A stretch of DNA of 60,000 nt. Origin: Membranipora membranacea. Its lineage: Eukaryota; Bryozoa; Gymnolaemata; Cheilostomatida; Membraniporidae. Positions within the stretch are counted from its first letter, which is position 1. Each line of letters opens with the position of its first letter. Below are positions 1-24,837 of this stretch, piece by piece. The position numbers and the translations under genes are program-made. The notes beneath the pieces were generated by a model. It made no database searches. It worked only from the letters and a program-made list of their open reading frames with translations, and had not been told where the DNA came from. Location: contig OU612066.1 in NCBI GenBank assembly GCA_914767715.1, positions 26,574,283-26,634,282 of the forward strand. The letters run 5' to 3'.

Positions 1-3000
1 AGTGAGATATGTAAGAATTCCTCAGCAGCAGTGAAAGACTTTATCAGCCCACTGGCTCGAGGATATCTTGAGATATGTACAGAGCATAAACCAGAGGAGA
101 GAGATCTTACTGAGTTCTTTGGTCTCCGTGATTTCTACAGGTGGGCACACTGCTTGGTTTGTCCTGTTGTTGCCCGCAAAAAAGATGTTTCCTGTAGTGT
201 TGTGTTACCAGTTCCAGTTCCAGTAATTAACATTTTTGTGAGGAAAACTTATTGAGGGTGTGATCAGCTTTTTGGCAGTGATTTGCCCGATGTTTGGTGT
301 GTTAATGCCTTGGTATGATCAATCCATTACCATAATCAGATGACAATGTACAATATGTTTCGTACTTATTACATCTGTGTCATAGTGGGTTCATTGTAAG
401 ATGTGAACATTTGTTTTCTAGCTTGATGAAGATGGTTGTGAACTTTGCTGACACATCAGAACACGGTTTGAATCGTAATCACTTGGAGCACTCTATCAAG
501 CGTAACTTTGGAGGCTTCGATCCTGATAAGTTCGACCCGATGAATGTTTTCACACGCCACTGTAGAGATAAGTTTGAGCGTTTAGCTCCTAGTCTCAACA
601 ATCTACCACTCACTGACTCTATGGGTCTGATTAAGACGAGTCTTACTGGGGATGCTATGGGTAAACTGGATGATGTCCCTGATCATCTGAAGATATCTGA
701 GCTGATGTCAGAGTCAATGGACCAGGAGATGATGGATACTGCAGATGGGGGCGAGATGACTGATGGATCGCCGAAGACTGCTGGCACAGGGTAAGTTTGA
801 CTAGGTTCTCATCCCAACCTCTTTTTGTGTGAATCGATGTTCAACACATGTGCATTAGTTTCTCAAAGTCTCACATATACCAACTGTTAAACGAGCATGA
901 TCTGAGCTTAGACTAACTTTCCAGTAGACTCGTATATGTTGTCTGCGACTTCTTCAATGTGTGATTTCCAAGCTCAATTACAATTGATGATCTCAATATA
1001 TAGTCATATCTTTAAGATGACAAGGTCAATTGAGTCAGGTTGAAAATGTTGGCTTCAAGAAAAGACTTCTGTGTTTCTCTGCGATAGTCCCAGTTGGCAC
1101 CACCTAGAATTTACCCACAATCACAATGGTCCCACAATTACAACGGTCCCACAACAACAAAATTCCCACAATTACATTGGTCCCACAATTACAATGGTCC
1201 CTCAATTACAACGCTTGACCATTTTTTTTCGCACAGAATTGAGAGCAGATACTTGTTGATTCTGGTGGAAAGTCTGAGTGTACTCAGTATAATATTAGAT
1301 GAATTTGGCAGAAAACAGACACACAAACCGATGGTTGTGTTCGGAAGTCGATTCAAAGATGACGTCTCCTACACCCAGGTAAATACACACATTATTGACT
1401 CTGTTACTGTAACTATGATGGAAGGGGTGAAACAGAGTCGCCCGTTGGTTGTCATTGAATAGAATAAACAAGGAAATTTGAGCCAAATCCTCAATTTTAC
1501 TAAGCCCAAAACCTTAAATCATAATTCAGCGGATTTGTTCCCAAATTGTTCAATGACATATCCAGTATGGCTAAATGTACAACGTTGTTTCACATCAATC
1601 CTTGTGATCTTTGGACTACTGGCTAGATAAACCATAAACCAAATTCATTCAAATGGTATTGAAACCACAATTATCAGCTTTACAACAATTAATCTTTTAG
1701 CTAAGATATAATTAATATTAATCGAAACACTTAATGCCTCTGTAGGTGTGCCACAACATCTACAGAATAAAGACATGTATGGACATGGGACGCCCTGTGA
1801 TTCTACTGAACCTGGATGATCTCTACGAAAGTTTGTACGATGCCCTGAATCAATACTTCTCTACCTGGGGTGACAAAAAGTTTGTGGATCTCGGTCTAGG
1901 TACCCACAGAGTGAAAGCATTTGTTGATGACAGATTCAGGTATGTAGGAAGTGATATGATGAAGAATTTTCAAAAACAGCCGGTCTTTATATACATATCA
2001 CTATCAGTGACCTGAGCTTTAACTGGACATTATGTCCTGCACTGAAATGCTGCTTTTTGTTTTGACGCTTTTACGGTATGCTTTGACTTTGCGCTGTAGC
2101 TTTTCACATATTCATACTGACTTCATCCATCATTAGATTATAATGTAATCGCATGATGTTCATCTAGCTTTTTCAAACTTGTGAGTTACTTATATCAACG
2201 AGTGAGAGAACTCTTTGCTCATACAAAGCCATTCTCAATTGATCCGCAAATTTTCAGCGTGTAAACAAGCAGAAATCAAACAACTTGTCTAGAGTAGGAG
2301 GAGGTACAGTAAGTTGATAAGAGCATTGGTCCTACAGCATGTAAAGTCAAAGGTTTGAATCCTTCTACAGTTTGGCGCCCAAATCATATCCTTACAGCAG
2401 CACTTAGTCTCACTCATTGAACCGAGGCAACATTCTGCTATTTTAACCAGATCATTAACTGTTGTTTAATTCTGTTTTGTCAGACTGGTAGTGATAGCAG
2501 ATAAGAACAAAGTACATTCACAGTTCCCCATACCGCTGATAAACAGATTGGAGAAACATTACATATCAGCTACTTCGCTTCTGGATCCAGACCAGAAAGG
2601 CATCAAACAGAAGCTGGAAGCATGGGCGGAGAAATTTGTCAAACCTCAGATGATGTTCAAGTAAGTAACTAAGCACTTTTGCCGGTAGATCATGACATGG
2701 TTGACTCAGTTGAAAATTATTTGAATAAACCCTTGTCATGATAGATCTGCTTTTAATATAGGATAGAAATATTTTCAGTTTAGTAATCATCTATTTACTA
2801 TAGTCGTATCTTACCACTTGATATTAGATTAGCCCTGCTGTTGTGTTCACATATATTTTGTGTTATCAGGAAGGTTTGCCCATCCGAATGTCATGGATGT
2901 GGACTGAGTCTTGACCAGCCATACCAACTGCCGTGTCTGATGCACTTTATCGGACCATGCTGCCGAGAGGCTATGTTTAGAGGTGATATACCGAGGCGCT

Positions 3001-6000
3001 GTCCTGTAGCAGGCTGTAGTACTGATGAAATACCGGAGGAGCATGAATGGGAGGTGGCTAAAAATGCGCTTGAAAACAGGTAACTTCTGCCTAAACTGAT
3101 GGTTGCTTCACTGTAAAATAGTACATTACATTTGAGGACTTGACCTGTTTCAAACATGATGCTTGTAGCTTTAGATAACCTACATGAAGATTTGTCAACC
3201 TCTGATCCAAACGTTCACACAATGTTTTCTGGATATATTACAGACAGTATTTTGAGAACTCTCGAGTAGAGACAGCATTTATAGGATACAGTAGTGAGAC
3301 AACAGCGCTGACAGTCAGACAGGCTACTGAAGACATGATGGAGAATCTATATGATGAGGACTTCTTGGATAAGGTAAAATAATTATAACTTTTCTTCCTC
3401 TTCATTACCGAGACCTTGAACCTGGTGTTTATCTGTATCCTGTCCGATTATATGTAGGTAGTCAAAATAGTTCAAGCTAAGGTCATATTAGTCTTGATGA
3501 GTTTATTAATGAGATGTGACTCACACAGACCTGCCCATCAATGATGAAGAAAAGAAACTATCTACTCCTTGCTTGTATGGTTTTATCAACGAACTTCATT
3601 GGTTTTATCTACTCTATGTACCAGCTGTAAAGTGTATTGCTGCATGACATGTGCTCTGTGTTTTTGTTACTGGTCTGACTGTCATTGGCTGTTTGTTCTT
3701 TTTTTCTTGGATTTGATTGGCTGTTGATTCGCTCTAATGCGAAAGGTGATCAGGTACATGCTTACAATGAGAAGGTACCAAACTCTCATGTCTACTCTAT
3801 ATTGTCGCAGGTATTTGAGCAAGCTAAGTTCTTGCTACTACAATGCGCCACAGGAGAAGCTGTCCTCCGTCTGGACAAGACTGAACTCCAGCGTGAAGCA
3901 GTGAAGATACAGGATATATACATGAGGAGACAGAAACATGAGAATCTTCATGAGTATCTACATCACGCTCTCAGTGATACAAAACAACCTCTCTATATCC
4001 AGGTAAATAAAACATTCACAGCAGCAGTGCATTCCGGAAATGGTGAGAACAACTGTTTTTTTTTCTGACTTTCAATCCTGCCGATGATGACCCAACTTGA
4101 AAATAAACAGCAATGATACCCCACCTAGTGCTGCCTACTTACCTACCTAGCTTACAAACGATGTAAATTAAAAATAAATAACACACTGAGAATTGTTATC
4201 TACTATCCAACAGGTAACAACTTTTGCTGAGCTGATGACAGAACACGATAAACACAAACTTGAGGACATGATGGGACAGACAGGTGGACAGAGAGTTCAG
4301 ATTCAGAACCTTTATCTCAAAGAGTTCCTTAAAGAGGCTCAGTTCACTGAGAAAATCAGGTAGATAATGGACTCAATATAACAATGGTGAAAGTGATATG
4401 ATGATGATAATATTGATTTCAATGTTGTGTCAGATTCAGTACTCTGAGCCATATTCTGTTAAATTTCCAGGAGTTGTTATGATGAGCAGACTGATGTCAC
4501 ACGTATAATACTGTTACAATGTGAGCTGGCTCATGAGAATACTGAACTGTTAGACTCAGTCAGATATATAATAGAGCACCAGAGTGATGAAGCTAAAACA
4601 AACGCTCATACAGTACTACTACTCAACTTACCCAGAGGTCACAAATTCACTGGATATCAAGGTTAGTGATATACTTCATCTTCATAACGTTGTGTCATGA
4701 TAAGTCATGTGACTTGGGAGGAGCCAGCAAAGCAAGGCAACAAATCAAATGTGGATGGAGATTTTTTATCTGGATATATCTCATCAAGTTATCTTCATCC
4801 ATCCCTAAAACTCCACCGTGAATAATGTCCACCATTGATTGATATAATGTGAAAGTTTGAAGATGGTGGGACAAGTTGCCGTGCTTTTTTCAGTGGAACA
4901 CCAGATGTAGTAAATTTATTTCACAGGTTAATAACCTAACACAATGCCCTACAGACGCATCTATCTGCCACTATCACGAATCCAAATGGACATGTATTCA
5001 TGCACCGAAGTATTGATATTGTTATTTGTAGGTGGTAAGTGGCGCTGTATGCATATAGACGATCCTCGTACACCAGAGATCCGCCTGCCTTCACTCAGCT
5101 CATGTATGAAATTGAAACCACATGAAATCATAAATAAGCTCATATCCCGATTGGACGGCGCTGCTGGTGGGCCTGAAGCTGCTGCGGCAGCACCTATGGA
5201 GACTGGAGATGACAATGGCAGTGAATTTGATGGACTCAAGCAGTTCATAATCAAATGTGTGCCAACTGCAGTTTCAATTATCACTACTGATCAACACTAT
5301 GATAGAGTGGATCTTCTAAAGAAACTTCTTACAGAAAATAAAGGTTTGTATTCATTAAGGCAGTCAAATGCAATCATCTTAGGTCTTCTCTTTCAACAAG
5401 AGACCACCATTACCAGTAACTTCTCTGGTTGCTCTTACCTGGGTGCATTAATAAAATAAATTTTAATCGTTCAAATTTGAGTTTCAAATCATTCTTGCAT
5501 CCCATATCATGGTGTTGATAAAAGTGAATGCTTACAATGTTTAGTGAAAAGGACTAACAGTGGAGATTATTAAAATGAGACATGAGCTGCAGGAAGAAGG
5601 CTTTGGCACAGTTTTTTTATTTATTATTGGATCTAAAGTGCAGAGAGCTTCAAGAGAGATCAAAGAGAGCAGATACCACTGCAATTTCACTGTTGATTGC
5701 TTATTTTTATAAAATTGTAGAATTCCTGAAGTTGTTCCTTGCTCATGTGAGAGATCTGCTTGAGAAACAGTATGAGTTTGCCTTAGGATCGTGGGTTAAA
5801 ACTGATGCAGCTAAAGCCAGTAACATGAAGCAGTCAGAAACACTCAGGTAATTATGGAACACAAAGACAGCCCATGACCGGATTTTGTTTGTTACATCAT
5901 TTCCTTACACATGGACTTTTCGTCTCAACTGACCATATCCAATATTATCAGGTACACACTTTATGATGTCTCTGGTGCAACCATAAACATATATATGTTT

Positions 6001-9000
6001 ATGGGTGTAACTCAAATTTGATATTCTAGCAAAAATCTCTAAATCATGCCAGTGAAAATTTGCCTCTACCAATGTATCCTCTAGTTGACCTAAAGGTGTG
6101 ATACACAGAGAAATGAAATGTTCCTTCCAGCTACTGAGTGTCATATTGAAACTTTCGTAAAATTTGTACTACAGACATGCCCTAGAGGACTCACTGGAGA
6201 GAGCCTTTGTACCCGGCCTGGCAGCTGTCATATCATTTATTGATGTACGAGGTAACATACAGATGATCAAATCTCCTGGAGTATTAAATAGACTCTGGTT
6301 ACAGCTGTTTAGTGAATGTGATAAACTTGGCCTTACATACAGTAAGCTCACTGCTGGACAACAAGGCGCAGTAAGTGAACCTCTAACATTATTCAAGACG
6401 AACCACGATGAGTGACAATTATATAAACAATGTAAATGTAAATTTGTAAATCACTTTTTATTAGCTGCTCTCTAGCAATCTTTACAGGAATATAACATAG
6501 AGAAATATACATATTCAACTAAGCGCACTCCTGTACAAGGTAGAAGTGGGCAAGCTAGGCTATTGCCCGGAGAGCTCCCCTCCTTCAGCAGCATGTGTAG
6601 TGACTGGGATTTGAACCAGCAACCCTCAGATAAACCACCATGCCATACTGCCATTGGTGTAACTTCAGTCTGCCAACATATGGAATACATATTGACGGAA
6701 ATCTCACAGCTTCAAACAATTTGGTTCCTCAGTCGTAAATGCCCATAAATGGCTGTTGGAAATGTTGAAATGTTCAAAACGTTGGCTGATAGTATTTGAA
6801 AATGATACAGACTTGTTACTAAGTCACCATTGTAGTAGCCTGTATTACTGTTGATTGTTGATTGTGTTGATTGGTTGTTTTGACATTAAAGTATCATTCA
6901 TGTATTGTAGAAGCTACCAAACAGATACAGGGTTCAGGAGTTTGGCACTGGAAGGCAGATGTTTGAGACACAGTTCCCATTTTCATGGATTGTCAAACAG
7001 ACTATAGATAAATTTATAGCGGCCAATGACCCTCAACAGGAGCTCAACATAGGTAATTTGCCAAGTAATGTGTGTTGATAGAGCATAGACTTTCAGCCCT
7101 CAATTGGTTTGTATCTTCTTAAGAGGTATTTGTTTATATTATCGCCACAAGGGACCCATAAGATGAGAGTTTATTGATGCACGGGAAAGGATTTTTCTGA
7201 CACATATCCTACCTGATAGTGGCTGTCAATGGCTATGTTCCTAGTTGGTACTTATTTGAGAACAACTCTGTCTTCAAGCACCTTTGGTTTAATATGACGA
7301 TTGATTTCCCCCGGCTAGTATGGTTGTATTTGGCTGTGATATATTCCTAATTTGTTATTGCAGACAATCTGGTAGAACAGTTTAAATCATCCCCTATCGG
7401 TATGGTTATATATCATCCCGATTACAACAGACTAAAACCTCAGATGTTAGACCCTTACCTCGTAGACTTCATCTATATGTCTCATCCCTGCTCCAACAAG
7501 ATAGAACATCAGGTATAAACTAGAAATTCTTCTGATCTGAAAAGTATGCATGATACACTCCACTTAATTCAGACCACTGCTTAATAAGTTTTTTAATAAT
7601 AAATTGGCTGAGTGGAGACAAATCAACTTCATATTATGTAGCAGCTGCTGATCTCTGCTTTTCACGTGTTCATTACTCCCCTTCTCAATGACGCATCTCA
7701 ATTTACTTGCGAATTTGTGATAGACTGTAAACATCCCAAGGTAATGTAAGAAAACCAACTTCTTTGTGGAGAAAACACAATTGTTTTTTTTCGTTTGTCC
7801 ATTCAAATATCAGTGTACTGTTTATCATCTACTCTTGCTTCTAGATGGTCGGTATGAACATAATGATATACATTCAGAACGAGATGCACATCAGAGACCC
7901 ATCCATGGTACACATACACATAGCCTATGAGAAGCAGAGAGAAATGATGCAAAGGCTCTCTGCAGCTTATAATCTAACCTCTGAAGCTCCTGGTGAAGGA
8001 ATCGCTGAGAGGATCAGGAGACAGGTGGAGAAATCTGAAGAGGTCAGTCAGAATGTTATCCTTCCTTTATGTTTGAAATGAATATTGACAGTTTTACTGT
8101 AAGTTAATTCGCTTTCATTTACTTCCTTTGTTTTCATTGCTGGTGACCCCTTATTGTGGTAGGTGTTTGGTGCTGCTTCTGCAACTGTTTTTATCTAGCC
8201 ATTGTGTTAACTCTGATTGGCTGGATGGATTGGATTAAATCAATCAGAAATTGCCTCTAACTGCAATTTTCTTCCCTTCGGTTACAAGAAACATAATTTT
8301 AGGACCCTATATATTATGTCTACAGCTTTATTCATTGACATATTACAGAGATCAGATGTGGTAGTGTTAGACATCTTATTGACTCTAGTAAAGGAGATAA
8401 AGATACCTGATGTTATGAAGGATTCTGCAAGATGGGTCAATCTCGTAGAGAGATGCAAAACTGTGTATGATATGATCATAAATCTTCTCGATACGGATTT
8501 TGACTCTGGTATCATTGGGAACTGTCGGTGAGTAATGCACGTGCTTGCTGCGTTATTGTGGTCACAGCACTGTTCTAGGCAGACAAGTTTGACTCTTCAA
8601 ATTGAAGAATATACACATGAATTCACCTCTAGCACAGTCAGATGTGCATTTAGGTCATGTCACTATTAATTTAAGATGGGCTGTGCCAGCTAGTTGAGCG
8701 CCTGAATCAAATTTTGTGGTTTGATGCCATGTCACTTAACTGTCAAACCCTTATGACTAAAGTCACTAGTAGAATGCAAAGTTACAAACAGTTCATCTTT
8801 CATAGTGTGTTTCTTCTAATCTCTGTGTGATATCATTTTCCCAGTAATATGTGGGCACAGCTAGAAGTGAAGAAGCTGTATGTGGAACATGTGATCATAC
8901 CAGTAAACCAGGAGAGACAAACTAAACAGAACTTCAACCTCAAATCTCTTATAACAGTAAGTACAATGAAAGTCTTATGCTTTAATAACCTGACAGGGTT

Positions 9001-12000
9001 GAACCAGACAAATTTAAATAAACCAACTTCTATGGATAGAGCCGCAAGTAGTGGCGGGTTCTGCATGTCCTGTAAGTCAGCTTGTATTGAAAATTCAACC
9101 AGATATTCATTACTGACATCATACCTGGGTAAATAAGAAGTTGCATTCCCTAGAGCAGATGATTCCTTCTCCCTTCGATAAATCTCACCAAAAACAGCCT
9201 CAACTACAGCAAGTCTGCCGTGCTGTAAAATGTTTTGCACTTTTTTATATGAAATCATGGCTCTACATTAATCACATGGACTTAATCGATTTCTTTTGGC
9301 AGCACTGTTTACCAGCCCAACAAGCCTTATTCTACATGTTTGAAATTTTTCTATAGGAGGTGACAGAGACAGATTTCAGCACACATGAAGCATTTGAACA
9401 GATAGTCAAGTTTCTACGTAAGACAGTGTCTGATGAGCTGAGGGCTCTATATCCGTAAGTTTTTTTTCTCTCAATTCAAGGCTTATTTCTCAGAAAATTG
9501 GTGTAGACATTCATGAATGAGCTTCAAGAGCTCTTAATGGAGAGAAAGCACTATTCCATTGTCAGCATTTGTAGAATTCTTAATACCGAACCTACTTTGG
9601 AATGCTATAAACAAGACCAACTTCATTTTGATCATATGATCAAGAAGGTCATTACCCAAACCTTCTATTGATTTACACTCTTTGATAATCTGTTAGTTTC
9701 TATTGAATTAGTTTTGTGAATGTGTTTGTAGGAAATGTCCAAAGAAGTGCTTTTATTGTAATGAGGTGATCGACTCCCCAGTCAGATTGAAGTGTAATCA
9801 CATCATGTGTTATAACTGTGTACAGGAGGTAAAACTGTGTGCACAAGAGAACTGCGGTAAAGAGATCAACGAGGAATCAATCATAGAACTCGCATCTGAC
9901 AATATCGAGTAAGCTTTCATCATATCCCTATCAACCTTACCAATCTTGGTGTATGTCTGAATAGTCTTGTAATAAATACACAGTTCAGAGAACTAGAGCC
10001 TTTGTAAGCCACCCTTGAGAGAAGTCATTTAGGGCCAATTTAAGTCATATGCATGTGACTCGAACACACTTAGTTGAATGTGGAAATGTACTCAAGCTGG
10101 CTCAATGAAATTTGTGATTTGTCTGGATTTGACTCAGCTGAAAGCAAAACAGCCATGATCTGAGATGACCTAGCAAGATCTATCTTGATTAGTTTATTAG
10201 GCTCTTTAGAGAACTGATCTGGGTTAAAGAAAAAAGAAATTGGGATTAGCTTTGAGTATTTGGTAATTTCCCAGTATAATTCACAAATCAATATTAGACT
10301 GCCATTACTCTATGTTTTAGGAAACAAAAACTAGACTCATTTAAGAGTTTCAGAGCTCGTATGAATGCCTTCTTCATGCACTTCATCTCGGAGGTAGTAT
10401 TTACTGCAGAGTCACAACCAGCTGATGAGATAATGAACTGGTTACTCCAGTGTATAACCTCAGATAAAACTACAAGACAGCTCAGTTTGTTCAACTCACA
10501 AGAAGTTGTCGATCCCAGCCCTGTTCTCAGGTATGTTTTTTGTATTAATCTAGTCATCTGTTATGTATACTTCATCCAATGGTCTTAGAAAGGATAGACA
10601 CTCGCATGGCTTGTTAGATAATAAGTTGTTCATTTCCCCTTAGTTGGATATGGTCAAATGTATGCGCTGTACTAAGAGTTTCAAAATATAAAACAATGAG
10701 ATAAAACTTAAACGATTGCTGCCACAGCTGGGCTTTGCCAAGCAGAGCCACCAGTAAAGATTTTAAAAAGAGAGTTGTGGCATCAAAACATCTAGCCAGT
10801 GGCTTTGCGTGGAGTTATATGAGCTCTCAAAAAGTAGGGAGTATCTTTTTCCCTTAGGCCACACCAAATTGATGTCTTGATCTAGATTTACCTCCCTCCT
10901 CTAAAATATTATCTGGATCATAGAAATAAACTAAAATTACCTCCAGCTGATCATTCTCTAAATTATTGTAAAAATAACACAAAATGTGTGATAAAATGAA
11001 TTTCCCTCCAGCGTCCTCTCCATAATTGCCAAAAATAAAACAATAAAATGGAATTCCCTCCAGCCTCCTCTAGTATTTTGGCATAAAATGAAAAAATAAT
11101 ATACCTCCTCCCTCATCCAAAATTCCTTCTTGCTCGTCATCTAGATCAAGACATTAATTTGGTGTGGCCTTAAACTGTCGACCACTTTGTAATGTGTACA
11201 TCTGTTTCACAGATTATGAAATGTCTCATTGTTACGGATTTTTACAGGTCATTCCTACTGAAGCTGTTACTAAGATGTGAACAGAGTGAGACTGTCATTG
11301 AAAGTCTCAATGATATGCTTGCCTCATGGAGAGACCAACCTAAACTACAGGTTCAAACCATGGTACTCTTCATGAACTGTCACAAGGTATGTTAGCAATA
11401 AGACATGCTAGCTTTGTTGCACCTGAGCTGTCCCATCCTGGTAACAATGTGTGTGACTAGAAAACAGTGTCAAGAGAATGATCTTGTCTCATGGAAGTGC
11501 ATCGTAGTTGTTTGCTGGTCAGTAGATCGTTCATCGCTGTCATCATCATCATCGACAAGCGGAAAGACCAACTATCATCCTTCAAATATTATCTGGGTTT
11601 TCACTAAGTTTCAAGGTAATTGATTGTATCGTTTCAGGACTTACATCCACCATCGCCGACCGCTGGTCAGCTGCAGAATGTGATATCAGATCCAAACACA
11701 TTACAGCTCATTACTGAAGAAGTTACTGAACTACCTGTTATGCTTCTCACCCAGTTAGCTGATGTACAGGTAATTATCACATCACAATGATTCAGGAAGT
11801 TTTGAATAGTTACTTTGTTATGAAAGTTTCATACTGAAAACTAAAAAGTTCCATAGACTTATTGTTCACTGTCTCCAAATTGGATGGAGCTTTTGCATTC
11901 AACTAACTCCATCCTGATTGGAGTTCTCAGCCGTTGAGCTTGGAGTGAATATTTTCCACTCATTCATTTGAGACCCCACAAATCTGTTAGTGATTATCTC

Positions 12001-15000
12001 CACATCTTTGACTTACAATCTCTTTCGAACTCACTGATTATTGCTTTTCTCTAGGCTGTTGTTATTTATCCACAGAAGTCATCCATACAATGAAGGTTAC
12101 GAGTTTTACTTACCTTGTGCTATTTCAATTACTTATGTTTAACAGGTCTTCATCAACAACATCACTGAAATAGTACTCGACAGTAAGAAGACTTCCCAAA
12201 GGCTGGAACAGGAATTTCAAAATTTCTTACTTGCGGCCAACCAATCTGGAAACTTTCAAATCAAGTATGTAATTGTGATATAAATTTGAAGGTGGATTAT
12301 CTCAATTCCTTGCTCTATCAGTCATTAAACTAAGCCACATCTTTCTCAAAACATTCTCTAAGAAGTATTCTCATCATGCATTGAGTGTTTTCAGAAATTG
12401 AACTCAAGTAAGTCCCATCATACTTGCCAAGTAATCTAGATACAAAAAAGGGAGATTCCATTTTACGGCGATACTGCACCACAACGTGGTGCTTCGAGGG
12501 TGCGAAGCACCCGAGTCACCCACCTGGGGGTTTGGGGGAGCCCCGTCTGCAGAAGCTCTGAGAGCGTTTCCAGCCACTAGGAAGGGCTAAAAAGGTATAT
12601 TTGACCCCAAATAATTTCATGTTTGTACTAGTACTAAAATATCAAACTGAGGTGAAATACACTTTAAACAATTACAATCAATCCATGGGCCCCTGGGACT
12701 CTTACATACATGCCTTTACATTGTCAATGTCCAGTATCAAACACCCCATTGGCAAAGTAGAGGCATGTATGTCCCAGGGGCCCTTGCCTGTCAAGACAGG
12801 ATACAAGTGCCCATGCATCATCAAGATCTGAAAATGTGCTCAGTCACAGACAGTGAGAATCCAGTTAAGGTACTATATTCCTGTTTGACGAACATTAAAT
12901 AAGTTTCAAAGTCTTTGGTCCGAGCTTTGTTAAATTGTAGTGGACATACCTTTGGAATTGTTAGGTTTCTATTTCCCTTCACTTAAATTTAACTAGTGTA
13001 GACAGTACAAAATTAATACTAAAAAATGTGTGATCTGAAAGGAAATGAAAACTAAATGTATGCACTTGACTAGCTACTTTCTATTGTGACCAATGACAGT
13101 CAGTGTTGTGGGTTATGAGAGGATGCTATTGGTCATTTACAATAATAGGCTGAATCTTAACAAAACAGGTAAATTTGTTCATACTGACTCTCGTGATCTG
13201 ACTGGGCATGTAGATCACTGATAAACTAGGCTATCATTACCACAAAGCAGGTGTCGTAAGGCTAAGTATGCATCATGCGTGACTTGAATTTGCGCATGTG
13301 CAAGAACAATGAGTTTAGTTTGGGTTCTGATTGCAACTTTGGAAAGGGGAAATGGGACATCCCCTGCGTAAACTGTCAATCAAAATCAGCTAATCATGAC
13401 AAGAGAGGATAACTATTAATAACAAATCCGCACGCTTTGGGGAGTATGTCGCCAGAGCAGGTAGCCAATCAGATGGCTTCGGAATTCCGAGACTCAATTT
13501 TGCAGAGATCAGCTCATGCCCAGAGCTGAGCATGCGCAGAATGAAATTTGTTAGGATTGTTTAATTTGATAATTCCTTTCAATTTTGTGTGCAAAGACCT
13601 TAACAGTAACTAGTCAACAACAACATGTGCTTGGATAACTATCAAAAAATTGCGATTGGACTTTTTTCTCTAAAATCTGGAGGAAATAGTGAGATTTACA
13701 AAAAGTGGGAGGTGAGTGTAAAAATCTGGAGGGTCACGCCTAAATCGGGAGACTTGGCAAATATGAGTCCCATTCCGCTCATTCTGAAAAGATCAATGGC
13801 CAATTGCCAGCAAGATTTTTAAAAGATGGTTCAAGTCCATGAAGCTATGTGTTCCTTTGTAAAATTTGTTTTAGTTTCCTTGTGGTGAGACAGTTGCTCT
13901 CTGAAGGAGGTGAGAGTTACGTTAATGATCTTATCAACTCTCCCTATAACTATCTAATACCAATGAACATTAAGAGAGCTCTTGAGGACTTCACTGTAGC
14001 AGATACACTGTCCATATTTGGAGGTGATTCATATAAGAAGGTCAAACAATCATTAGAGAATAGCTTTGTGCACTTCACAAAGAGGGACAGGTTCTCGGAA
14101 GCCCTGGAAGAGATCAAGGGACAGGTATGTACACTGGAATACTGATTGAAGAGAATTGAACACAATGGACTGCATGTCAGGGGTGTCTAAGTCTATATTG
14201 TAGACAGATGTTTCAACATCACAGATATATTTTTTTTTAAATAACCAATCAAAAGAGAGTCAACTAACGCACTGTCATTTGGTGAATTGCATGGCTTTAA
14301 ATTTGTCTTACTCATTCTATATTATTATTTAGGCTGTTTCTTTTAAATTTTGCTGCATCAGGGTAGTGCTCAAAAAAGAATTTCTTGGCTGTACAGTGCA
14401 GTATTGAATTATTATAATGGCAGCACTGCTTGCCTTCTCTATTGCTTATTTCGGTTTCTGAAAACCTGTCATTCCTACTGATGCTTTACAAATATTACAG
14501 ACTAAAGATCATATACTACTGTGGGGTGTCTTCACTAGAATTACTCGTACTATGGTGTCTAAATCTCCAGTGCCAAAAGAAATCAGAGATGCAATCAAGA
14601 GCAACCTCAGGCGGAACATGAACCCCAAGAATATTGTAGGTTTATATTTTTGAGTATATCTTTGTAACATTTGTGAGATATTTTACACCAGATGTTGTCT
14701 GTTTTTCAGCAATCACCATCAGGACTGCTTATGAATGAAAAGACATTTTTGAGTAAAGTTTTGTTTATTTAAACCTTCCACAAATACTACTGATAAGTTA
14801 TTGAAACGTTTTTGAACAATCACTGTCCGAAAAGAAACCCTCTGGCCATTACCATTCCTAACTCAGCAATTTTTTTATCAGGATATGCTCGAGTTTCTGT
14901 TGAGAGACACACTAAATGAGGAGATGGATTTAGTACAATCACGAGGGGTGAACCTGTCTATGCTAGTTCTTCACATGTACAAATGTCTGTCAGGGGATGA

Positions 15001-18000
15001 GACAAAAGGAGATCTGTATCCACTCGCTGAGATCATCAACAACCCTCAGAATTCTGCTGTAAGTTGTTATTTGACATAATTTATATGCCACTGATTATTT
15101 CTTCTGGAATAGCACGCCAATATCAATCATGCGTTAGCTTCCATAACCAGCTGGTTGGCCTTATGACAATGCTAACTATTTTAGGTTGTCGGAAGTCTCA
15201 CTAAATTCCTTTTTTATCTTCCTTACACATGGTTGTTACTCAATCTACTGTTTCTGCTGAGTAGAATTTATCATTCTCTCTAGACTCATCCAGCATAGAC
15301 TGTTATCAAGTTTTAAGTTTCTATCCTTGTTTATTGCAGACTCATTTCTTCCCAACAATGCCTGACAATCAGTATGAGCTTATTGGTGCTAGTGGTATTA
15401 ACGTAGGAAAATCATACAGTAAGTACAATGCCTTTTACTGATATTATTTTCAATTTATAGGCTTGTGAACATCGGGTAACTGTAAATTGCTGAACAGACT
15501 GAACAGCTGAACAGAATTTCTCAGACTACTATTTGTTTGATTCTTAACATGATTGGCTAATTTTGCATAAGCATGGACAATTCTTTATATTCTTCTCATT
15601 AAATTATTTATTTTAAGTTTGCATTCACCTTGGTTTCTTTCAATTTTATGCACAGCAAATTTTTTGGCATTACACGACTAGTGAATGGATGGAAAATAGC
15701 CCCCCCCCCCCCCCTATCAACAAAGCTTGTTAAGACTGGCTAGATGGAAGGTTGAGCTGGATAATGTTTCTGGTATCCAATTTCCAGAACACCATCAGAT
15801 TTTGTCATAATTGGCACATTGATTGCTTCATTTGCTTGCCCTAAATTGGTTATATTAGATGCCAACAGAACAGGAACTTAGTGACTCATCAAATCATTTG
15901 GTTAGGAGGAATGTGTCTGACAAGTGATAGTCAGCCAGGGAAATGATAACAATAATAATAATTTTAGTCTGAGAAATTCTGTTCAGCTGTTCAGTCCGTT
16001 CAGCCTGTTCAGGGGTTGTATAGCTTTTTGTAAGAGTATATGTAAAGTGCACAGTCTTTTGAAACTGTAGAGATGTGAAGTGAATATTTATCTTTCAGTA
16101 GCTCTTGCAACAGGGGACAACTGTTAGCTAGATTTGATGACCTGTTTTATCATTATCAATTGAAATCGCCTATCCTAGTTGTCTGATTGTCATCCAAGTT
16201 TTCAATTCTGTTCAAGCGGGCCAACATGGTGTTTATGTGATATATGTTACATAAAGTCGCAAAAGATGGACATCTATCATCATTAATTTCATTTAATTAA
16301 TTTTTCAGAGTGTCCAAATGGTCATCCCTACTTCATCGGTGATGTAAGTGTCTACTATATAATGATAATCTTAAACTACTGCTGCCACACAGCGAAATGG
16401 GTGCTTACTGAATTCTGTATAGCTCCCAACTAATAAGGCTGCAATCTCAGTATCGTCACCAAATGAGCAAATAATTTCACAAACGGATAGACAAAATCAG
16501 CGTATGATATTAATTATCTACCAGTATCATGTGATGTAGTTATTGTCTTACTAGTGGAAATTAATTACTGGCATCAGCTAGTGCTAAATTTCATGCTCTG
16601 GTTTTGAAGATAGGTTTGTGCAAATTATTTGCCTATTAGGTGCAATTCTGAGATTAAAGTCTCATTTAGTTATCTTGGAGCTATACAGAATTCAATGAGC
16701 ACAAACTTGCCTGAGTGGCAGCAGTAGTTTAAGGTCCAATGTCTTTAAAACCATAACAAGGCCCTCATTTGTGTAACCTTTCATGATGTTTTTTCTATGG
16801 GTGATGCTGATAGCATATGTTTATGGTTGTGTTGTCGCTGGCCCAAGATAATTGACAATGACTTTTTTGCAAGCTGATGCACTGAATCTCAATGACGGAC
16901 ACCATAACTTTGTTTGTTGTTAGTGTGGAAGGCCTGTACAGCGTACACAATGTCCTATTCCAAACTGTGGCCTATTTATCGGCAGCACAGGACAGTATGG
17001 CCAGTCAGCACAGGGGAATACTCAAGTAGCTACAGGTGACAGGTCAGTATCAAGCTGTCTTCTTTTTTGCTACATGCTTCATTGTTATGTTTACAGTGCG
17101 GTAGACCGTGGGTGGAGGATAACTGTCGCACATGCGGAGCCATTATTGGCGGTAAAGGTCATAAAGAGGCCACAGGAAACCAAGCAATCCAAGCCAATGA
17201 TAGGTAAAATAATTTGATTGTATTATGAATGACTCCCTTACCTAATCAATCGTACCCTATGCTATCTAAACCGGGCCTCAAAAACTCAATCCTCATTTCA
17301 ATCTCAATCAAGTTTTCTGAACATTTCATCAGATTCAATGATGTTAGTTACTACCACTTACTACTTAGTTGACTGAGGCGCGTGGATCATTTTCATGAAT
17401 ACATCCAACCTAATTTATCCATTTTTGTTCAAATTCGGTACCTGCTATGAAACTCTGTCCTACTAGTTTCGAGCAAATTTAGCTTTTACTAATACTGATT
17501 ACATGTATAATACAGAGCGTTATCAAGGTTTTCAGCTACGATTGACACAAAAATGGCAATCTTCAGCTATTCATTACTCATTCAAAACCTTTTTACCTGT
17601 AGTGCAATGAAGAGTAAGCCAGCACACATACTGGGCGCTCACTCCACAAGAGAAGGACCTCTACCTGAAAGAGAACTAAGCTCACTCTCGTGTGCAATAC
17701 TGAGACTACTCACACACCTGGCCATGTATACATCATTCCTTGTCAACAAGCGCGCAGTGAGTAAAACCACTAATGCTGTAATATTGTTTGACTAAGATCC
17801 CATAATGTTGTGTTGTCGGGAATCATACATATAGCCTTCTCTTTAGTTTACCTCTCTGAATAAAATAACTTGCTACACTTGAGGTTATGTTATCCTCTGG
17901 CGTTTGAGCCGCCGAAATGTTACTTAGGCAAAAGAATCGGCTGTGGCTATACACTCTTGGTATTTCACATCATAAATGAATCATTGCAAAATTTCAATCA

Positions 18001-21000
18001 ATTCTGCTTCCCTGAAGGTTCATTTGCATTGTTGACAGGTTCTGCAAATGATACAGCCGACCCAGCCAGGAGACAATGTGGTCGGATCGTTTATCGACAA
18101 ACACATACAGATGGACTTGAAGCACATAGCTCAGTGCTGTAGTGAGAATGCTGATGATTGTCTTCTACTTGTGCATGATATCATCAACAACATGGCCAAA
18201 AGTAAGTAAATATATTACAACGCATACAGCTTTAAAGGTGGTCATAGATTGTCTTTTCATTGCATCCCATCTGTAAGGTTCTGTCATGAAGGTTTTATTA
18301 GGTGAGCTGTGTTTATATTTCGACATTATGATGAAAAAAATCTATCCCTCATTTGGGAATTCTTTTTTCTATATATCATCATATTTGCTAGCCTCAATAG
18401 GTCTATGAATTGCCTTTGACTTATCTTAATGGGTATCATTGATATTTCGTTTTGTAGGTGTAGGGAATCGTGGGGCTGACAAAATTCTAGACACCATCAA
18501 CATCCGTCAACAATGGGAAAAGAACTTTGATCAGAAATACATCAGGCCTACTCTAGATCAAAAGGTAACTAACCTTAGTAATGCTCTTCCATGAATGTCA
18601 TTTGCAAAACCCTGAATAGTAATGAGAACATAGATAGTTGTAGTCCTCAGACTCATGTTTTCTCAATAACCTTGTTCCTCTACAACTTCCACAACATCCG
18701 GAAGAATATAAGTTGACATAATATTTTGAAGAAACACAATGTAATGAATCTCACCTAATTGTTTTACAGGCGGATAATATCGAGAGAATGAGTAAAGTCC
18801 TGAGAGTGGCTGATAAGGTTGATATTAAGAGTATACTTGATACTAAAGAGAATCCGATAAACGCTGATAATATGATGTCATCACCTGGTCTGTGGGAGTA
18901 CAGCAGACCGCTGACTCTACCTAGAGTACAGAACAGGCAGCAGGCCGAGGTAAATATACTGATAGTTTAGTGACTATATTGTGCTGTCTTCTCAGTCTCA
19001 GCTGGGTTCTAGGTTAACACAACTGATCCCTTATCAGAGACTTATGTCAGAGGTTTTGGAAATAAAGTCTTGTCAGTGTATCCCATTTTGGAAAACAAAG
19101 GTCAGGAAGCAATGTTATGTAGCTAAATTAACCCAATTTAGGCACCACTAAAATTTCACAAGAGACCTGAATTTCAAATCAAGAGAATGGTGTCAAACCA
19201 AACTGTTCAATCTGTGATTGTCTTCAATCTGTCATGTGTTAACAGAGAGAACCGTGTCTAAAGAGGGTTGCTGAGCAGTGTGACAAGTTAGTGACAGTAC
19301 GATATCTACCAGATATAATACAGCTGAATAACCTACTCAATGACAGGTTCCACAGTAAATACACTAGGGAGGAGGCTCAACACGTACCTATCTCTGAGTT
19401 CTGTAGAATGCATGGAACTGAGCTAACGAACATAAGAAAACTAGTGGACAGCTTCATACAAGCCTGGAACATGGCTACCACCTTCAGTATGTAAACCTAA
19501 CAGAACAGATAATAACAGGGGTTCTCAGAACAAAATAAACGGATGGATTTATAGTTATGTTGGAGTTTGATATGTTGATAGTTAGGCTGCTCTTATTCAC
19601 AGAGCCTATTGAAGTCATGCACTTTCATGAGTAGCTAGAATAAAGAACAATGTCCAATAGTTGAGACGTAGTACAGCTGTGGTAGAACAGCAATGATGTG
19701 TGTACTACACCCTGAATTGCATCTTACAGGTCGGTAAGTAGTGAGTGTGACAGGCTTGGGGTAGAAAAGTTTGTCTTGGGAATATCCAGTTAGTGATTGA
19801 CCAGAACTACTGATATTTGCATTGTAGCTAACCTGAAGTTAATGTCAGATCAGTCACCACTGTTTGATTTCCTGTATGACCAGCATGCCGCCGCTGATGC
19901 AGACCTCGGCAGGAAACCTTATCTACTAGCAGAGTGCCTCGTAACCATACAAAACTCTATGATACCAGAAGAAGATAGGTATGCGTCTTTCGTTCGAGAA
20001 CAAATGCACTAGTCTGTGATGGATTTGAGGTTGAAATGTATCCAGAAAGAGAAAAAGAACGGCGTTCCAGTTTCAATTAATTTATTCGATGATCACCACT
20101 GTTGTCCATGATTTATGAGTTGAGAAAGGCTGTCAGTAGATTAATTTTCATGTCTTTGATTCTTCTCCAGTGAGAGAGTTTCCCTGTCGGCTGTGAGATC
20201 CGCTAACGTAATCAACCTCTCAGGGGAAGATGAGCTTCTGAACCTCATAACTTCTCACTCTGAATATGAACTGAGTGGTGAGACAAGTAAAGACTATGAC
20301 TGGCCTTCTATAGAGAGACAAGTCATACTCAGATATATCAACAATAAGCCCAGGATTACATTCAATAGAGAAGAGATGGCTCACTATGTGTACCAAGAAG
20401 ATTTCAACCTGCACAACCAGATTCAGGCTATAGAAGAGTCTCAGGTTTGTTTAGTTTATCCATTAAGGATGTCATGCTTGGTATTATTTTGAGGAATGCT
20501 ACATTATGTGCAATTGTGCATGCGTTTGGTCCTAAAATCTTGAATTATTATTCAGGTAAACTAAATGGATTGGCTGCGCTAAGGTTATTAACAGCTTAGT
20601 ACTTTGTCAATTTTATAGGAAAGATTGTCTGACAGGCAACAGAAAGCGATCACAAGCTCACTTGTGAATGCCCCTATAGCTACCCTGACAGACTATCTGA
20701 AAAGCCTGACTGTCACTATCAACTTTCTGTCAACCCTGCCACACATAGAGCGTGAGGTGTCACTGTATCAGTATATGAGGACCACCCTGGGGCACTCACC
20801 TACCTACCTGTCAGATGACATGACGCTCAAACATGTCAGAGATGTGTGGCTTGTCATCAAATATACTCAAGTGGAGCAACTCATCAAACGTCAAGAGGTG
20901 GGTGGTCTTTACATTGTAAGGTGATACGATGGGTGGTCTTCGTATCTTTTTATTGTTGGCGGAAGAAGTGGGTGGTCTCCTCAAAGTAAGGAAATGAGGT

Positions 21001-22319
21001 TGGTGGTCTCATCGTCATTAAAAATAGCGATGGATGTCATCCTCATGATAACTAGCTTTCCAAAAAAAAACTTCCTTGAAAGTTTAATGCCAATATGATT
21101 GTCTGCCAGAACATTAACAAATCAGTTTGAGCAATGCATTACTAAAGCAAATTATTGCTATCACATTGCTCAAAGTTATTGTCTCTCAATTAGACCATTT
21201 TGTTCCCAAATCCCTCATTCAGAATGTATATAGTTACATCGATGAGTGAGTGATGTTTGAACAAGACCGCTGGGTGAACAATCAGATAGCGATTTTGGCT
21301 GTTTTAATTTAAGACTCACTCATCTTACTTCTTGACTTGTAGGAGGCGTTTGATGACATAGTACCTGAGTGTCGGGAGCCCATTACCAAAGAACTCATCA
21401 CTAGTCTCGACTCTGCAATTATGTTAAATAGCCCGAGTACCAAACTTCTACTGCATGAGCTCTTCAAGTATATCATCCTGAGGCTTAACAAGGCAGCTAT
21501 CAAGCAGGACCCCGAAGAAAAAGCCATCAGGTAACCAAATTGATACGTTCAATGGAATAAAATCAATATTTTGGAAAAATTTTTTTTTTTCTGGTTGAGA
21601 CATTTTGTATGAATTGTCTTCCAAACCGAAATTGCTGCCTCTAGTATAGCGGAATTATCTTTCTTTTCGGTATGGGAGATAACTTCAATAACATGTAGTC
21701 AGTCTGTGACCTTGTTTGATTACTCAGTATAAGCTGATTTCCATAAAGCCTTGAAAGCTATAAAGTAATGGTCCTGGCCATAATTATTGACTAGATACTT
21801 GTCAGTGTCTTATTTACTGGCAACAAAAAACCATGTAGATCGTAAATGGGTGGCTTTAGGTCTCGGTAATCATGGAGTGATAGAGAGCATACCATGGGTA
21901 TGTGTCTTTGTTGTTAGTTATTTCACTCAAGAGGCTCAATTGGTAAGGATAAAATTGTCAGCATTATAAAACAAAATGGAGGAGTAGAAATATTTCCTGA
22001 TAGATGCCACGTTGATGAACATATCCCTGGTCCATCAGTCAAGACCACAAACAAAATCAGAACAATCGATATTATTATACTGTTTGTTACAAGACAAGCC
22101 TGTGAAATTTTTAATATAACTTCTTGGCGTTTGGTTTTCAGTTTGAGAGATGCTCTGAATGGTTTTATATACGAAAGAGCCAATGAACATGATGAAGACA
22201 GAGCTGAGGAAATAACTATGGAGCTACCAAAACTACCAGAAGAGATACAAGTACAGCATGCTGCCAAAACCTGGTCTCATATATGGCAGCGATGTAACTT
22301 CTGGTTACAAGATCAGTAA
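1..22319 (+). CDS. RNF213: RNF213 (mysterin)-like giant AAA+ E3 ubiquitin ligase, 5' part outside window
   Basis: RNF213 proteins are dynein-like AAA+ ATPases fused to a RING, a large E3 module and an RZ finger; they ubiquitylate proteins and bacterial lipopolysaccharide. Family-typical segments appear in order: EFFGLRDFYSLMKMV (exons 1-2), LLNLDDLYESLYDALNQY and VDLGLGTHRVK (exon 4), FPIPLINRLEKHYI (exon 5), the RING (exon 20), an RZ finger starting KCPNGHPYFIGD (exons 28-30), then the long C-terminal region ending at TAA 22317-22319. Exons read by splice sites and phase: 1-140, 422-790, 1237-1378, 1746-1939, 2484-2660, 2870-3079, 3244-3373, 3811-4002, 4214-4359, 4471-4661, 5032-5343, 5721-5847, 6175-6370, 6911-7052, 7364-7512, 7845-8042, 8349-8527, 8845-8956, 9357-9454, 9732-9908, 10321-10530, 11248-11386, 11638-11769, 12146-12264, 13875-14124, 14501-14635, 14882-15058, 15340-15418, 16309-16343, 16924-17042 or 17097-17203, 17603-17756, 18039-18201, 18458-18564, 18770-18949, 19246-19486, 19828-19978, 20171-20444, 20619-20897, 21343-21530, 22142-22319. 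These give 6,891 nt with no internal stop. The start codon, N-terminus and most AAA domains are upstream. Invertebrates often have several RNF213 paralogues, so one-to-one orthology is not claimed. Confidence 0.93.
1114..1212. repeat. Minisatellite in intron 2 of the RNF213-like gene
   Basis: About six imperfect tandem copies of a ~17-bp unit close to TCCCACAATTACAATGG. They lie just before the acceptor of exon 3 (1237). An open frame through the repeat is fortuitous. Confidence 0.8.
2285..2375 (+). mobile_element. Probable tRNA-derived SINE head in intron 4
   Basis: The sequence has a pol III B-box-like motif GGTTTGAATCC at 2352-2362 and an A-box-like stretch (AGTTGATAAGAGC) about 50 bp upstream. 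No complete cloverleaf with paired acceptor arms is evident, so a SINE or tRNA pseudogene fits better than a tRNA gene. Confidence 0.4.
2870..3079 (+). other. Exon 6 of the RNF213-like gene: extra RING-like zinc finger in the AAA+ core
   Basis: This 210-nt exon (exactly 70 codons, phase 2 at both ends) encodes a cysteine-rich finger: C-x3-C-x2-C at the start (VCPSECHGCG), then LPC..H....CC, then C-x4-C (CPVAGC). It lies between the segment ending KFVKPQMMF and the segment AFIGYSSET, which are close together in vertebrate RNF213, so it is an insertion relative to that layout. Skipping it keeps the frame (AA+A instead of AA+G). Its cysteine order and its exon phases match those of the normal RING exon at 9732-9908, suggesting an exon duplicated from it. 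Spacing around the histidine is irregular, so true zinc binding or E2 recruitment is uncertain. Confidence 0.75.
6560..6690 (-). mobile_element. Probable tRNA-derived SINE head in intron 13
   Basis: On the minus strand there is a B-box GGTTCAAATCCC (plus positions 6606-6617), preceded by a tRNA-like region. It is intronic, between exons 6175-6370 and 6911-7052, and no paired acceptor stem was found. Confidence 0.4.
9732..9908 (+). other. Exon 20 of the RNF213-like gene: RING-HC finger
   Basis: The exon encodes C-x2-C-x11-C-x-H-x2-C-x2-C-x6-C-x4-C (CFYCNEVIDSPVRLKCNHIM, then CYNCV, C and C), a complete RING-HC ligand set. A preceding KCPK gives an additional upstream cysteine. It is followed directly by the helical E3-module exons (10321-10530 and 11248-11386), as in RNF213. 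The exon is phase 2 at both ends, like the RING-like exon at 2870-3079. Confidence 0.9.
10857..11169. mobile_element. 313-bp MITE with TTA target duplication in intron 21
   Basis: Terminal inverted repeats of about 30 bp start GGCCACACCAAATT and continue into a shared ATGTCTTGATCTAGA. TTA stands on both sides (10854-10856 and 11170-11172). The interior holds three imperfect direct copies of a CCCTCCAGC-containing unit. A 3-bp TWA-type duplication is typical of PIF/Harbinger; the family assignment is inference. Confidence 0.75.
12419..13765. mobile_element. 1,347-bp non-autonomous DNA transposon in intron 24
   Basis: The ends are inverted copies of CATACTTGCCAAGT (13 of 14 match), bounded by a perfect 8-bp duplication AGTCCCAT at 12411-12418 and 13766-13773. 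There is no transposase frame. The left part has a GC-rich hairpin around 12486-12512 (gtgcttcg paired with cgaagcac). An 8-bp duplication fits hAT- or Zisupton-like transposases. It accounts for most of the unusually long intron 12265-13874. Confidence 0.8.
12684..12788. mobile_element. Hairpin MITE nested in the intron 24 transposon
   Basis: Two arms start GGGCCCCTGGGAC and continue with ACATACATGCCT..AC; they face each other over a short loop. The same arms, 75-80% alike by eye, border the gypsy insertion at 34004 and 42704, so this is a second copy of that hairpin family. No clear target duplication is visible here. Confidence 0.65.
15489..16004. mobile_element. 516-bp inverted-repeat element in intron 28
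   Basis: A 39-bp terminal inverted repeat (15489-15527 against 15966-16004, one mismatch) is built from repeated CTGAACAG units. The interior is AT-rich and non-coding and contains a poly-C run at about 15700-15714. I see no clear target duplication. Confidence 0.7.
16309..16343 (+). other. Exon 29: constant first half of the RZ-type zinc finger
   Basis: A 35-nt exon encodes KCPNGHPYFIGD together with one base from exon 28 (15340-15418). This supplies the first Cys and the His of the RZ finger (C-x3-H). The next exon must supply the remaining cysteines, and two alternatives follow. The acceptor is ttttttcag and the donor gtaagt; the exon ends in phase 0. Confidence 0.85.
16375..16728. mobile_element. 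354-bp MITE with TTAA duplication in intron 29
   Basis: Terminal inverted repeats start ACTACTGCTGCCAC (perfect 14 bp) and extend to a shared TGAATTCTGTATAGCTCC. TTAA flanks both ends (16371-16374 and 16729-16732). It lies in the intron just upstream of the alternative RZ exons. TTAA targets are used by piggyBac- and Kolobok-type transposases; which one applies here is unknown. Confidence 0.75.
16924..17042 (+). other. Exon 30A: RZ-finger second half, version A (C-x4-C)
   Basis: A 119-nt exon, phase 0 in and phase 2 out, encodes CGRPVQRTQCPIPNCGLFIG and then a Gln/Gly-rich stretch ending in GD. It supplies the second half of the RZ finger with C-x4-C spacing (CPIPNC). The acceptor is tgttgttag and the donor gtcagt. 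It shares its start (CGRP), its core (C..C G..IG) and its phase with exon 30B just downstream, so the pair looks like a tandem exon duplication. Both splice to 17603-17756 in the same frame. Confidence 0.85.
17097..17203 (+). other. Exon 30B: RZ-finger second half, version B (C-x2-C)
   Basis: A 107-nt exon, phase 0 in and phase 2 out, encodes CGRPWVEDNCRTCGAIIGGK and then a variable tail ending in AND. It keeps the C-x2-C spacing usual for the RZ finger. The acceptor is tgtttacag and the donor gtaaaa. It begins only 54 nt after exon 30A ends. Because each exon is 2 modulo 3 in length, inclusion of both would shift the downstream frame, which points to mutually exclusive use. Confidence 0.85.
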
Positions 22320-24837
22320 TATCACATCAATTGATGTGGAATAACGCCAGGAATGACTCTCATTGATATGGATTGTTATTATTATTTAAAGACAACACGT
22401 TGGAAAAATTGTTCCTTTTTCTATAGAAAAAATATTACCAAACATGGTCAGCTAGAGAACTGTTGTATATATTTTTGTATCGCGCAGCTCATGCTCTTAT
22501 CCGCCGAAATTGCAAACCCCAACACTGCTCAAACGTGACTACTCATTATCTGTTCAAAAAATATCATTATGCAATACACCAATTGTGCCATAGTCGGTTC
22601 CTTTGTTATAAGTTTGTGCTCACTATTTTTTTATTGGTATAGATTGCAGCACCGAGGATTTGAACCCCTTGGACACGAAGCGACATGTTTTCCCACTGGA
22701 TATTTAGATTTGTAGAACATACCTGTATGTCAAAATTTATCCTGCATGTTACCAGTCAAACATAAAATATTATTTTCTACAGTATTTTCATTTTCCAGTA
22801 CTGCATTATTATAATAAATATTATTATGGACAACTTGCGATGTTGTATTCTCCTGCTCAGATGGGAATGTGTGAGAGATGCTAGACATTTAAGATATCCA
22901 ATCCCCAACCGGGATTTACATGATCCATGATCCATGATCAAGCCTCAAAGTGTTTGCCTGTTCAGATAGGTACAGTTGAGTGAGGCAAGGCATCTTATAT
23001 GTAAAATAATACAGAATTGTATTCGGACCACTTTTTCAAGAGCTAGAGCAACCTTCCACACATCAATTCATTGCACCCATCCGCCCCAACTCAGTAGAAC
23101 AAGTTTCCTTTCCTCTGTGGTGGCGGAGTGCTATTAAAAAGATTCGGTATTTAGGCTCTGCACCACATCTGGTATGGTGGTGGGATACACTGCTCTTTAG
23201 GTATACCTCTGCTTTTACTTGATTAACCAACTCAGTTCCTGTGAGTCCGGCTAAAATTCAGTAACAAAGTGTATCTCAAATCACTGTGCATATGGGTTGT
23301 GCCCTCGTAATATGATAGTCTAACTAAACTGTGGACAACTTCTATAATAATTAGTGGAGTTGTCCTGCTTTCCAATAAAAGAAAACAACTCCAGAAATAA
23401 ATATTCAGCTTTCAGAGGTAGAATGATAAAGCCCGGAATGTCTATCAGAAGTGATACATTCAGACTAGGTGAAAGACCAGCTTGCCTTTAAATATGTTAA
23501 GCAATAGTGACTTTTTAAGGTGATTAGGGCAAGGGCCATTGTTTTCATTGCTCCTCAGAAAACCCCATAATAAAAATAATGTGTGTAATGCTTAAATCTA
23601 CCTTCTAGACTGATCTCAAGATAGCAAGCATAACCATGTGATGTCAATAGTCAATCCAAATATGCTATAATTATACACAGACTTATTAAAATTGAGATCG
23701 ATCAAGAAAATTTGGCAATTTATATAAGAATATTAGCCATGTCTTGGTTTGAAGATCTGAAGATTACCATTATTATAAAGTCTAAGGATTTGAAACATTG
23801 TCTCCTATGGATGGAAATCCCAACTTTTTTTATTCTTAGCCTGCACCTCAAATTCTTATCTATTCATCACATGCAGTAGAGGCAGACAGTCAAATAATCA
23901 TACTCGATGTAGCCAATACAATATCGGCTAAAATCACTACTCATTGACTTCTCAGTGATGATATAATCATTGTATTCAGAAGTCATGCAAAATCATTTAG
24001 ATACACATCACACCAACATGCGCCAACTGCTTGTAGTGAAAGTGTTCAAAAGTTGCCAAAGATGCCGGTGGTTGCATTCCTTTATCATTGAGGTGTTGTT
24101 AAACACATATAAGTATTGGGGTGATGATAATATTTGATGACATCATGCAAATTGAGATGACAAGCCCTATCATTAGACCAAGATAGAGTAAGTTTGCCTG
24201 AATTTTGAGTTGTTCCCCTCCACTAAAAAGCTGCCGACAAAAATACGGAGAGGACAGTTACCGCTAATTATTGATCTGAATGCAGGTAAACTGGATCAAC
24301 CCTGATCGACTCTATGATGGAGTGAAAACTCAGCAGACAAACGGATGCGTGGATAACGGAAAACCGTCGAATAAAGCGATATAACAAGAATATGTATTAC
24401 ACAACAAAAACTAAAGATATCAGAAATTTAGTTCACTCATTTTATTAGCCAAAATAAAATGAAATACAAATTTACAGAAGACCAAAAAAACATTAGACCC
24501 AGTTGATGTATGCCATAAAATAGAGTAAAATAAAAAAAAGGCCGTGGGATAAGCAAGAAGCATTTCTGTCAATAAAGACATTCCAAAATCAGAGGCAAAG
24601 CCTAGACCTCTGGGCCATGGTTAGGTGAAAGTAACATAATGAAAATTAAGCAAGTCATAAAGATTTTAGGATTTTTATATACATTATGATAATCTGAAGT
24701 TGAGTGCAGTATGAATGCAAGAGAGTTCTCCTAACAATTTATTTGAGTGATTTTGTTCCTAGAATTCGAGTTTCACCTGTCACTGTAATTAGGATAGCAC
24801 GCAACTTTCCTCGATGCAATCACTTATCAGCCGATCT
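22320..24837. other. Intergenic region between convergent RNF213-like and GPCR genes
   Basis: No coding exon could be supported. A tRNA-like B-box on the minus strand near 22656-22668 suggests a SINE remnant. An AATAAA-containing stretch near 22812 could serve the RNF213-like transcript. The rest is AT-rich without recognisable structure. Confidence 0.5.

Follow-up and report, generated by a model that had tools for sequence, protein, structure and literature searches.

Does splicing let a single gene choose between two versions of the catalytic half of an RZ finger? The RZ finger of RNF213 is a recently defined catalytic module, and its choice of substrate is not understood. The question is raised by two adjacent exons, here called A and B, in a stretch of 60,000 nucleotides from Membranipora membranacea (contig OU612066.1, positions 26,574,283 to 26,634,282; the whole stretch is hereafter the window), in which a first-pass annotation made from the letters alone had proposed that mutually exclusive exons switch the metal-binding half of the finger. 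The elements that bear on this proposal are as follows.

1..22868, forward strand: 3' part of the host RNF213-type gene, the model of which starts ~25 kb upstream of the window
15340..15418, forward strand: constant exon preceding the RZ finger (THFFPTMPDNQYELIGASGINVGKSY; enters in phase 0, leaves in phase 1; CAG acceptor, GTAAGT donor)
16309..16343, forward strand: constant RZ exon 1 (CPNGHPYFIGD; carries the zinc-ligand Cys and His that correspond to human C4505/H4509)
16924..17042, forward strand: alternative exon A (CGRPVQRTQCPIPNCGLFIGSTGQYGQSAQGNTQVATGD; nucleophile Cys and two zinc Cys spaced C-x4-C, without His)
17043..17096, forward strand: gap between A and B, 54 nt, GT..AG
17097..17203, forward strand: alternative exon B (CGRPWVEDNCRTCGAIIGGKGHKEATGNQAIQAND; full canonical RZ second half, including His)
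17603..17756, forward strand: constant downstream exon (SAMKSKPAHILG...NKRA; phase 2 in, 0 out; matches Watersipora P0124)

The host gene model, built by comparison with a paralog termed par4 and with its start and stop codons not located, is open across ~4,360 residues. It runs from AAA Walker A motifs (GETGCGKT and GKPGSSKS) through a RING to the RZ finger, which is the order found in RNF213, and by this predicted domain content and order the host belongs to the RNF213 family; the RING-like exon lies at 9732-9908, with RING matches under the Pfam cut-offs. Several short exons of the model are without support from Watersipora and Bugula proteins. Among the best 120 of 704 matches to the AAA stretch, the closest kin are bryozoan (Watersipora, 83%; Bugula, 81%), and the top-scoring match is a record labelled marmot (62% identity). 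Identity to Bugula proteins is 41% across the C-terminal part (P0243) and 49% over 2,360 columns (P0125), and identity to three Watersipora proteins is 57-64% over the AAA part. Between the whole host gene and par4, dN/dS is 0.10 over 4,162 codons. A second RING-like Cys/His cluster ahead of the RING (2877-3080) is conserved in Bugula and Watersipora proteins, with all Pfam models below cut-off. Elsewhere in the window, both on the minus strand, are three long open frames (34911-41893), which carry motifs of reverse transcriptase, integrase and a zinc knuckle and which we take to be a Ty3-like retroelement, and a 341-aa uninterrupted frame (24838-25863) that presumably resembles an intronless seven-transmembrane receptor.

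The coordinates, splice signals, phases and frames of the exon pair were all as the annotation had claimed. Exon A (119 nt) is bordered by ag and gtcagt and exon B (107 nt) by ag and gtaaaa; the two are adjacent and homologous (36% identical), and both enter in phase 0 and leave in phase 2, an arrangement in which the frame tolerates one exon at a time. With all joins translated in a script, A alone is open through exon 17603-17756 and so is B alone, and inclusion of both (226 nt), skipping of both, or retention of the 54-nt gap each brings a stop just inside exon 17603. Exclusivity by frame, as first suggested, is borne out by these translations, only A alone or B alone reading through. It is well supported at the level of sequence that A and B are a splice-competent RZ exon pair in an RNF213-type gene, and it is likely that both are spliced into present-day transcripts.

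The 54-nt gap, earlier suspected of being too short for normal splicing, is shorter than all 29 other supported introns of the gene and its paralogs (minimum 111 nt; the 29 comprise a set of 20, one of 111 nt and 8 of 226-594 nt). So short a gap fits steric blocking of A-to-B splicing, although this animal may be able to splice an intron of 54 nt. The raw model also had introns of 46-104 nt, which were set aside, as they flank small or poorly scored exons that are unsupported by Bugula and Watersipora proteins where compared. A search for base-pairing between introns that might steer the choice gave 15 ten-base complementarities and no clear docking pair. The intron before exon A holds one further element.

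16370..16733, no strand assigned: palindromic foldback element, a nearly whole-length palindrome in the intron before exon A

The intron holding it folds with a z of -10.1. The element is present in the window copy and in two sister copies of the gene (below) and is missing in par4, where its flanks align with ~90 nt between them; both of its ends are TTAA, which suggests a small transposon.

When joined to the constant exon, each alternative exon scores above the cut-off of 27 bits for the RZ profile PF20173 (A, 48.1 bits; B, 62.4 bits), in agreement with the claim of two alternative RZ exons in one RNF213-type gene. Scored alone, B reaches 33.3 bits (E 4e-8) and A 19.1 bits (E 0.001), the latter under the cut-off, so the match of exon A depends partly on the constant half; because A stands in the right place, phase and frame within an RNF213-type gene, its match is taken to be more than chance. 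Every solved-structure sequence matched (9 of 9) was RNF213. All four RZ zinc ligands (C, H, C, C) are present by sequence in both predicted isoforms, for which zinc binding is accordingly predicted. By alignment, the first two of these ligands lie in the constant exon, and the remaining two lie in the alternative exon together with the nucleophile and the His position. The last two zinc cysteines have four residues between them in A and two in B; at the His position B has His (GGKGH) and A reads GSTGQY, His being absent from the whole exon. Both members of the transthiolating pair, nucleophile Cys and general-base His, are found in B, and only the Cys in A.

In the available excerpt of PMC12075652, mouse RNF213 binds zinc through C4451, H4455, C4471 and C4474, C4462 is the nucleophile, and H4483 is the proposed general base, its Ala mutant showing lower autoubiquitylation ('< 10x'). 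The human counterparts, in the excerpted text of PMC11549300, are C4505, H4509, C4525 and C4528 (zinc), C4516 (nucleophile) and H4537; in the same text, C4516S left all three tested targets without ubiquitylation, and RNF213 RZ mutants still coated Toxoplasma vacuoles. On this published mapping, as far as the excerpts go, the swapped exon would carry the catalytic Cys, two of the four zinc ligands and the position of the general-base His. The description of a switched metal-binding half was thus correct for two zinc ligands but too narrow, as the swap is larger and takes in the active site, namely the nucleophile and a general-base His that is present in B only.

How unusual exon A is can be judged against a set of 241 public proteins from three protein searches (the best 120 of 215, the best 120 of 704, and 1 of 1), in which 172 RZ fingers were parsed by pattern and the other 69 proteins were unparsed; the proteins are mutually non-independent. 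Among the 172, the spacing of the zinc cysteines was C-x2-C in 167, C-x1-C in 3 and C-x4-C in 2, and the His position held His in 164, Tyr in 7 and Thr in 1. Each of the two departures of exon A is therefore present in the set (Mytilus P0004 and P0006, Ostrea P0010, Littorina P0007 and Gallus P0081 have one each), and the two together occur in 0 of 172. Watersipora P0126, which does not belong to the 172, combines C-x4-C with the absence of His at that position and is also without the CGRP nucleophile motif. The reported difference in spacing between A and B was confirmed, but C-x4-C is not unique to A, and its presence in two Mytilus fingers as well as in P0126 rules it out, taken alone, as the mark of a new kind of finger.

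Among the matches listed, exon A was not found in the 2.4-2.5 kb read at each of nine other RZ-bearing RNF213-like loci. Each of these has one B-like RZ second-half exon, all with His, eight spaced C-x2-C and one (L020) C-x1-C; the intron position is the same as in the window gene in 8 of 9, and at the remaining locus, L016, the sequence read did not reveal a first RZ exon. A further RNF213-like locus, L030 (C2:31467500-31471500), has a match to the post-RZ exon and a CPNGH motif, and an RZ second-half exon was not found there by search. In other bryozoans, Bugula P0243 and Watersipora P0124 have canonical RZ fingers, both B-type, these being protein records whose genes could contain an unannotated exon A. 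Of two further Watersipora proteins, P0126 carries a degenerate RZ and P0127 one that was left unparsed.

Exon A itself occurs at four places in the genome among 22 candidates scored, all on C2 between 26.41 and 27.01 Mb, and B adjoins it at each. Two sister copies (L009 and L010) share 98-99% identity with the window gene across ~2.4 kb and show zero differences in the RZ exons, and for that reason they are too young to serve as independent support; in the window gene and both sisters, the frame, cysteines and splice sites of exon A are all intact. Between 26.34 and 27.01 Mb on C2, at least five RNF213-type genes are clustered; three of these are 98-99% identical over 2.4 kb and lie ~200 kb apart. 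The diverged paralog par4 (L021/L022) keeps the A-then-B order, the two exons now being separated by a 2.0-kb insertion (~C2:26406906-26408915) exactly at the exon A donor, where the GT is gone; the insertion ends in terminal inverted repeats and is flanked by a target duplication of 8-9 bp. Because the insertion removed the donor GT of A, par4 is probably locked to B, and exon A seems dispensable there. Another paralog, p5 (C2:26.338 Mb; L029, C2:26336500-26346499, minus strand), is otherwise conserved and has the RZ core deleted: RZ exon 1 is gone, along with the rest of the exon before it and the first half of A, with the frame over the deletion open. The tail and donor of A remain in an open frame into the next exon, while B decayed. 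Against the window gene, p5 has a dS of 0.59 and a dN/dS of 0.15 over 1,126 codons. Since relics of both exons remain in p5 in the same order, the pair predates the p5 split.

These paralogs bear on whether the pair might be an assembly or haplotype artefact, produced by a misjoin or a collapsed allele. One chromosome carries three near-identical copies spaced ~200 kb apart, which might represent haplotypic duplicates, but the clearly diverged par4 has the same A-then-B order and so do the relics in p5, and we regard an artefact as highly improbable. Absence of one exon from close relatives had been named in the first-pass annotation as a finding that would speak against the pair, and here the relatives point both ways: the pair is older than two paralog splits, but one of its exons is disabled in each of the diverged paralogs, and both Bugula P0243 and Watersipora P0124 have B-type fingers. 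Paralogs that each miss one of the two options suggest that evolution is able to settle the choice.

The comparison with par4 (dS from the window gene 0.37 across the model and 0.33 at those codons that p5 shares) also speaks to constraint on exon A. Constant exon 16309-16343 is 35/35 identical and exon 15340-15418 has one difference; exon B is 103/107 identical (dN/dS 0.08) and the 54-nt gap 52/54. Exon A, free of indels, is 108/119 identical; it has 4 amino-acid changes, retains its three cysteines and gives a dN/dS of 0.28, and the neighbouring introns are 77-84% identical over their aligned parts, with gaps. A simple neutral simulation with 11 substitutions gave P = 0.008 for at most four amino-acid changes, no stop and all cysteines kept, and the low number of differences in A had a binomial P of 0.018 or 7e-5, depending on the intron rate chosen. 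Exon A looks to be under selection. Its dN of 0.064 is above that of most exons of the gene, five listed in-window exons being higher. Synonymous divergence from par4 is low near the RZ exons generally (dS 0.05 in the preceding exon and 0.15 in B, vs 0.37 overall), so local gene conversion may account for part of the conservation of A. The Arg of CGRP is Lys in both par4 exons (window 16924-16935 and 17097-17108), by parallel change or by exchange between exons.

The same data can be read as the decay of a duplicate, exon A having once been used and transcripts now including B only. The donor of A was lost in par4 and its first half in p5, its dN/dS is higher than that of B (0.28 vs 0.08), its profile score is weaker, and the A-type RZ is absent from the two canonical bryozoan fingers read. 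However, its frame, cysteines and splice sites are kept in the window gene and two sister copies, its differences are fewer than either intron rate predicts (the P of 0.018 or 7e-5 given above), and what p5 retained was the tail of A and not that of B, so decay appears unlikely to us. We favour the reading that A and B are real mutually exclusive exons that arose when the RZ second-half exon was duplicated in tandem within a single RNF213 subfamily of bryozoans, and we give it a probability of about 0.65, set at that level because of the low local divergence.

On this reading of A and B as mutually exclusive exons, the RZ second-half exon would have been duplicated in tandem, the conserved and very short gap would disfavour A-to-B splicing, and messages containing both exons or neither would be removed by nonsense-mediated decay. 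The choice of exon would then swap the catalytic half of the finger. The B isoform would be a canonical transthiolating ligase with a Cys/His dyad, and the A isoform a zinc finger that retains the nucleophilic Cys and has Gln/Tyr in place of the general-base His. Because the Cys is kept and the His replaced, isoform A may transfer ubiquitin more slowly or with different selectivity; most likely, to judge from its predicted residues, it is such a form and still assembles like RNF213. We are doubtful of, and offer only tentatively, the further idea that splicing toggles the chemistry of the ligase, an enzyme of innate immunity, with B acting as a transthiolating Cys/His RZ that ubiquitylates pathogen surfaces and A loading ubiquitin on its Cys and discharging it slowly or to another acceptor. 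If true, one gene would supply two RNF213 coats, one of them enzymatic and the other chiefly structural or of different selectivity.

A related account, which overlaps the one we favour and which we regard as possible rather than probable, is that both exons are used and that A serves mainly as a brake, either as a weak RZ isoform or through a premature stop in A+B messages that lowers expression. Exon A is without the His whose Ala mutant lowers autoubiquitylation of mouse RNF213 ('< 10x'; excerpt of PMC12075652), the A+B join does lead to a premature stop, and a low-activity form could keep a role, given that RZ mutants still coat Toxoplasma vacuoles in the excerpt of PMC11549300; the RZ-less paralog p5, with its dN/dS of 0.15 over 1,126 codons, is consistent with this. 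Against a mere brake, A retains the nucleophile and both zinc cysteines, and the Tyr found in place of His in 7 of the 172 parsed fingers indicates that loss of His need not abolish function. A gene in which nature exchanges just the half with the active site and keeps the rest constant would be a ready-made experiment, its two forms differing in only 35-39 residues, the general base included.

The window gene resembles vertebrate RNF213 and ZNFX1 in its RZ sequence (CPNGHPYFIGDCGRP...C..CG..IGG..H) and resembles RNF213 also in domain order; it is unlike both in having two alternative second halves in one gene, and in an exon A with C-x4-C and no His. Mutually exclusive tandem exons are known, and in the open-licence literature searched we found no account in which RZ exons alternate or in which an E3 active site is encoded by alternative exons and swapped in this way. 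Decay of double-inclusion messages is a described mechanism for mutually exclusive exons (available portion of PMC6071210). The nearest parallel in arrangement is exons 4a/4b of OGDH, which, in the part of PMC7969005 available, are likewise two adjacent homologous exons with the same phases and a length not divisible by 3, and have a size-restricted intervening intron that excludes transposons. In contrast to OGDH 4a/4b, the splicing here is predicted, and what would be exchanged is half of an E3 zinc finger, the catalytic half, in two versions of which one is without a catalytic residue.
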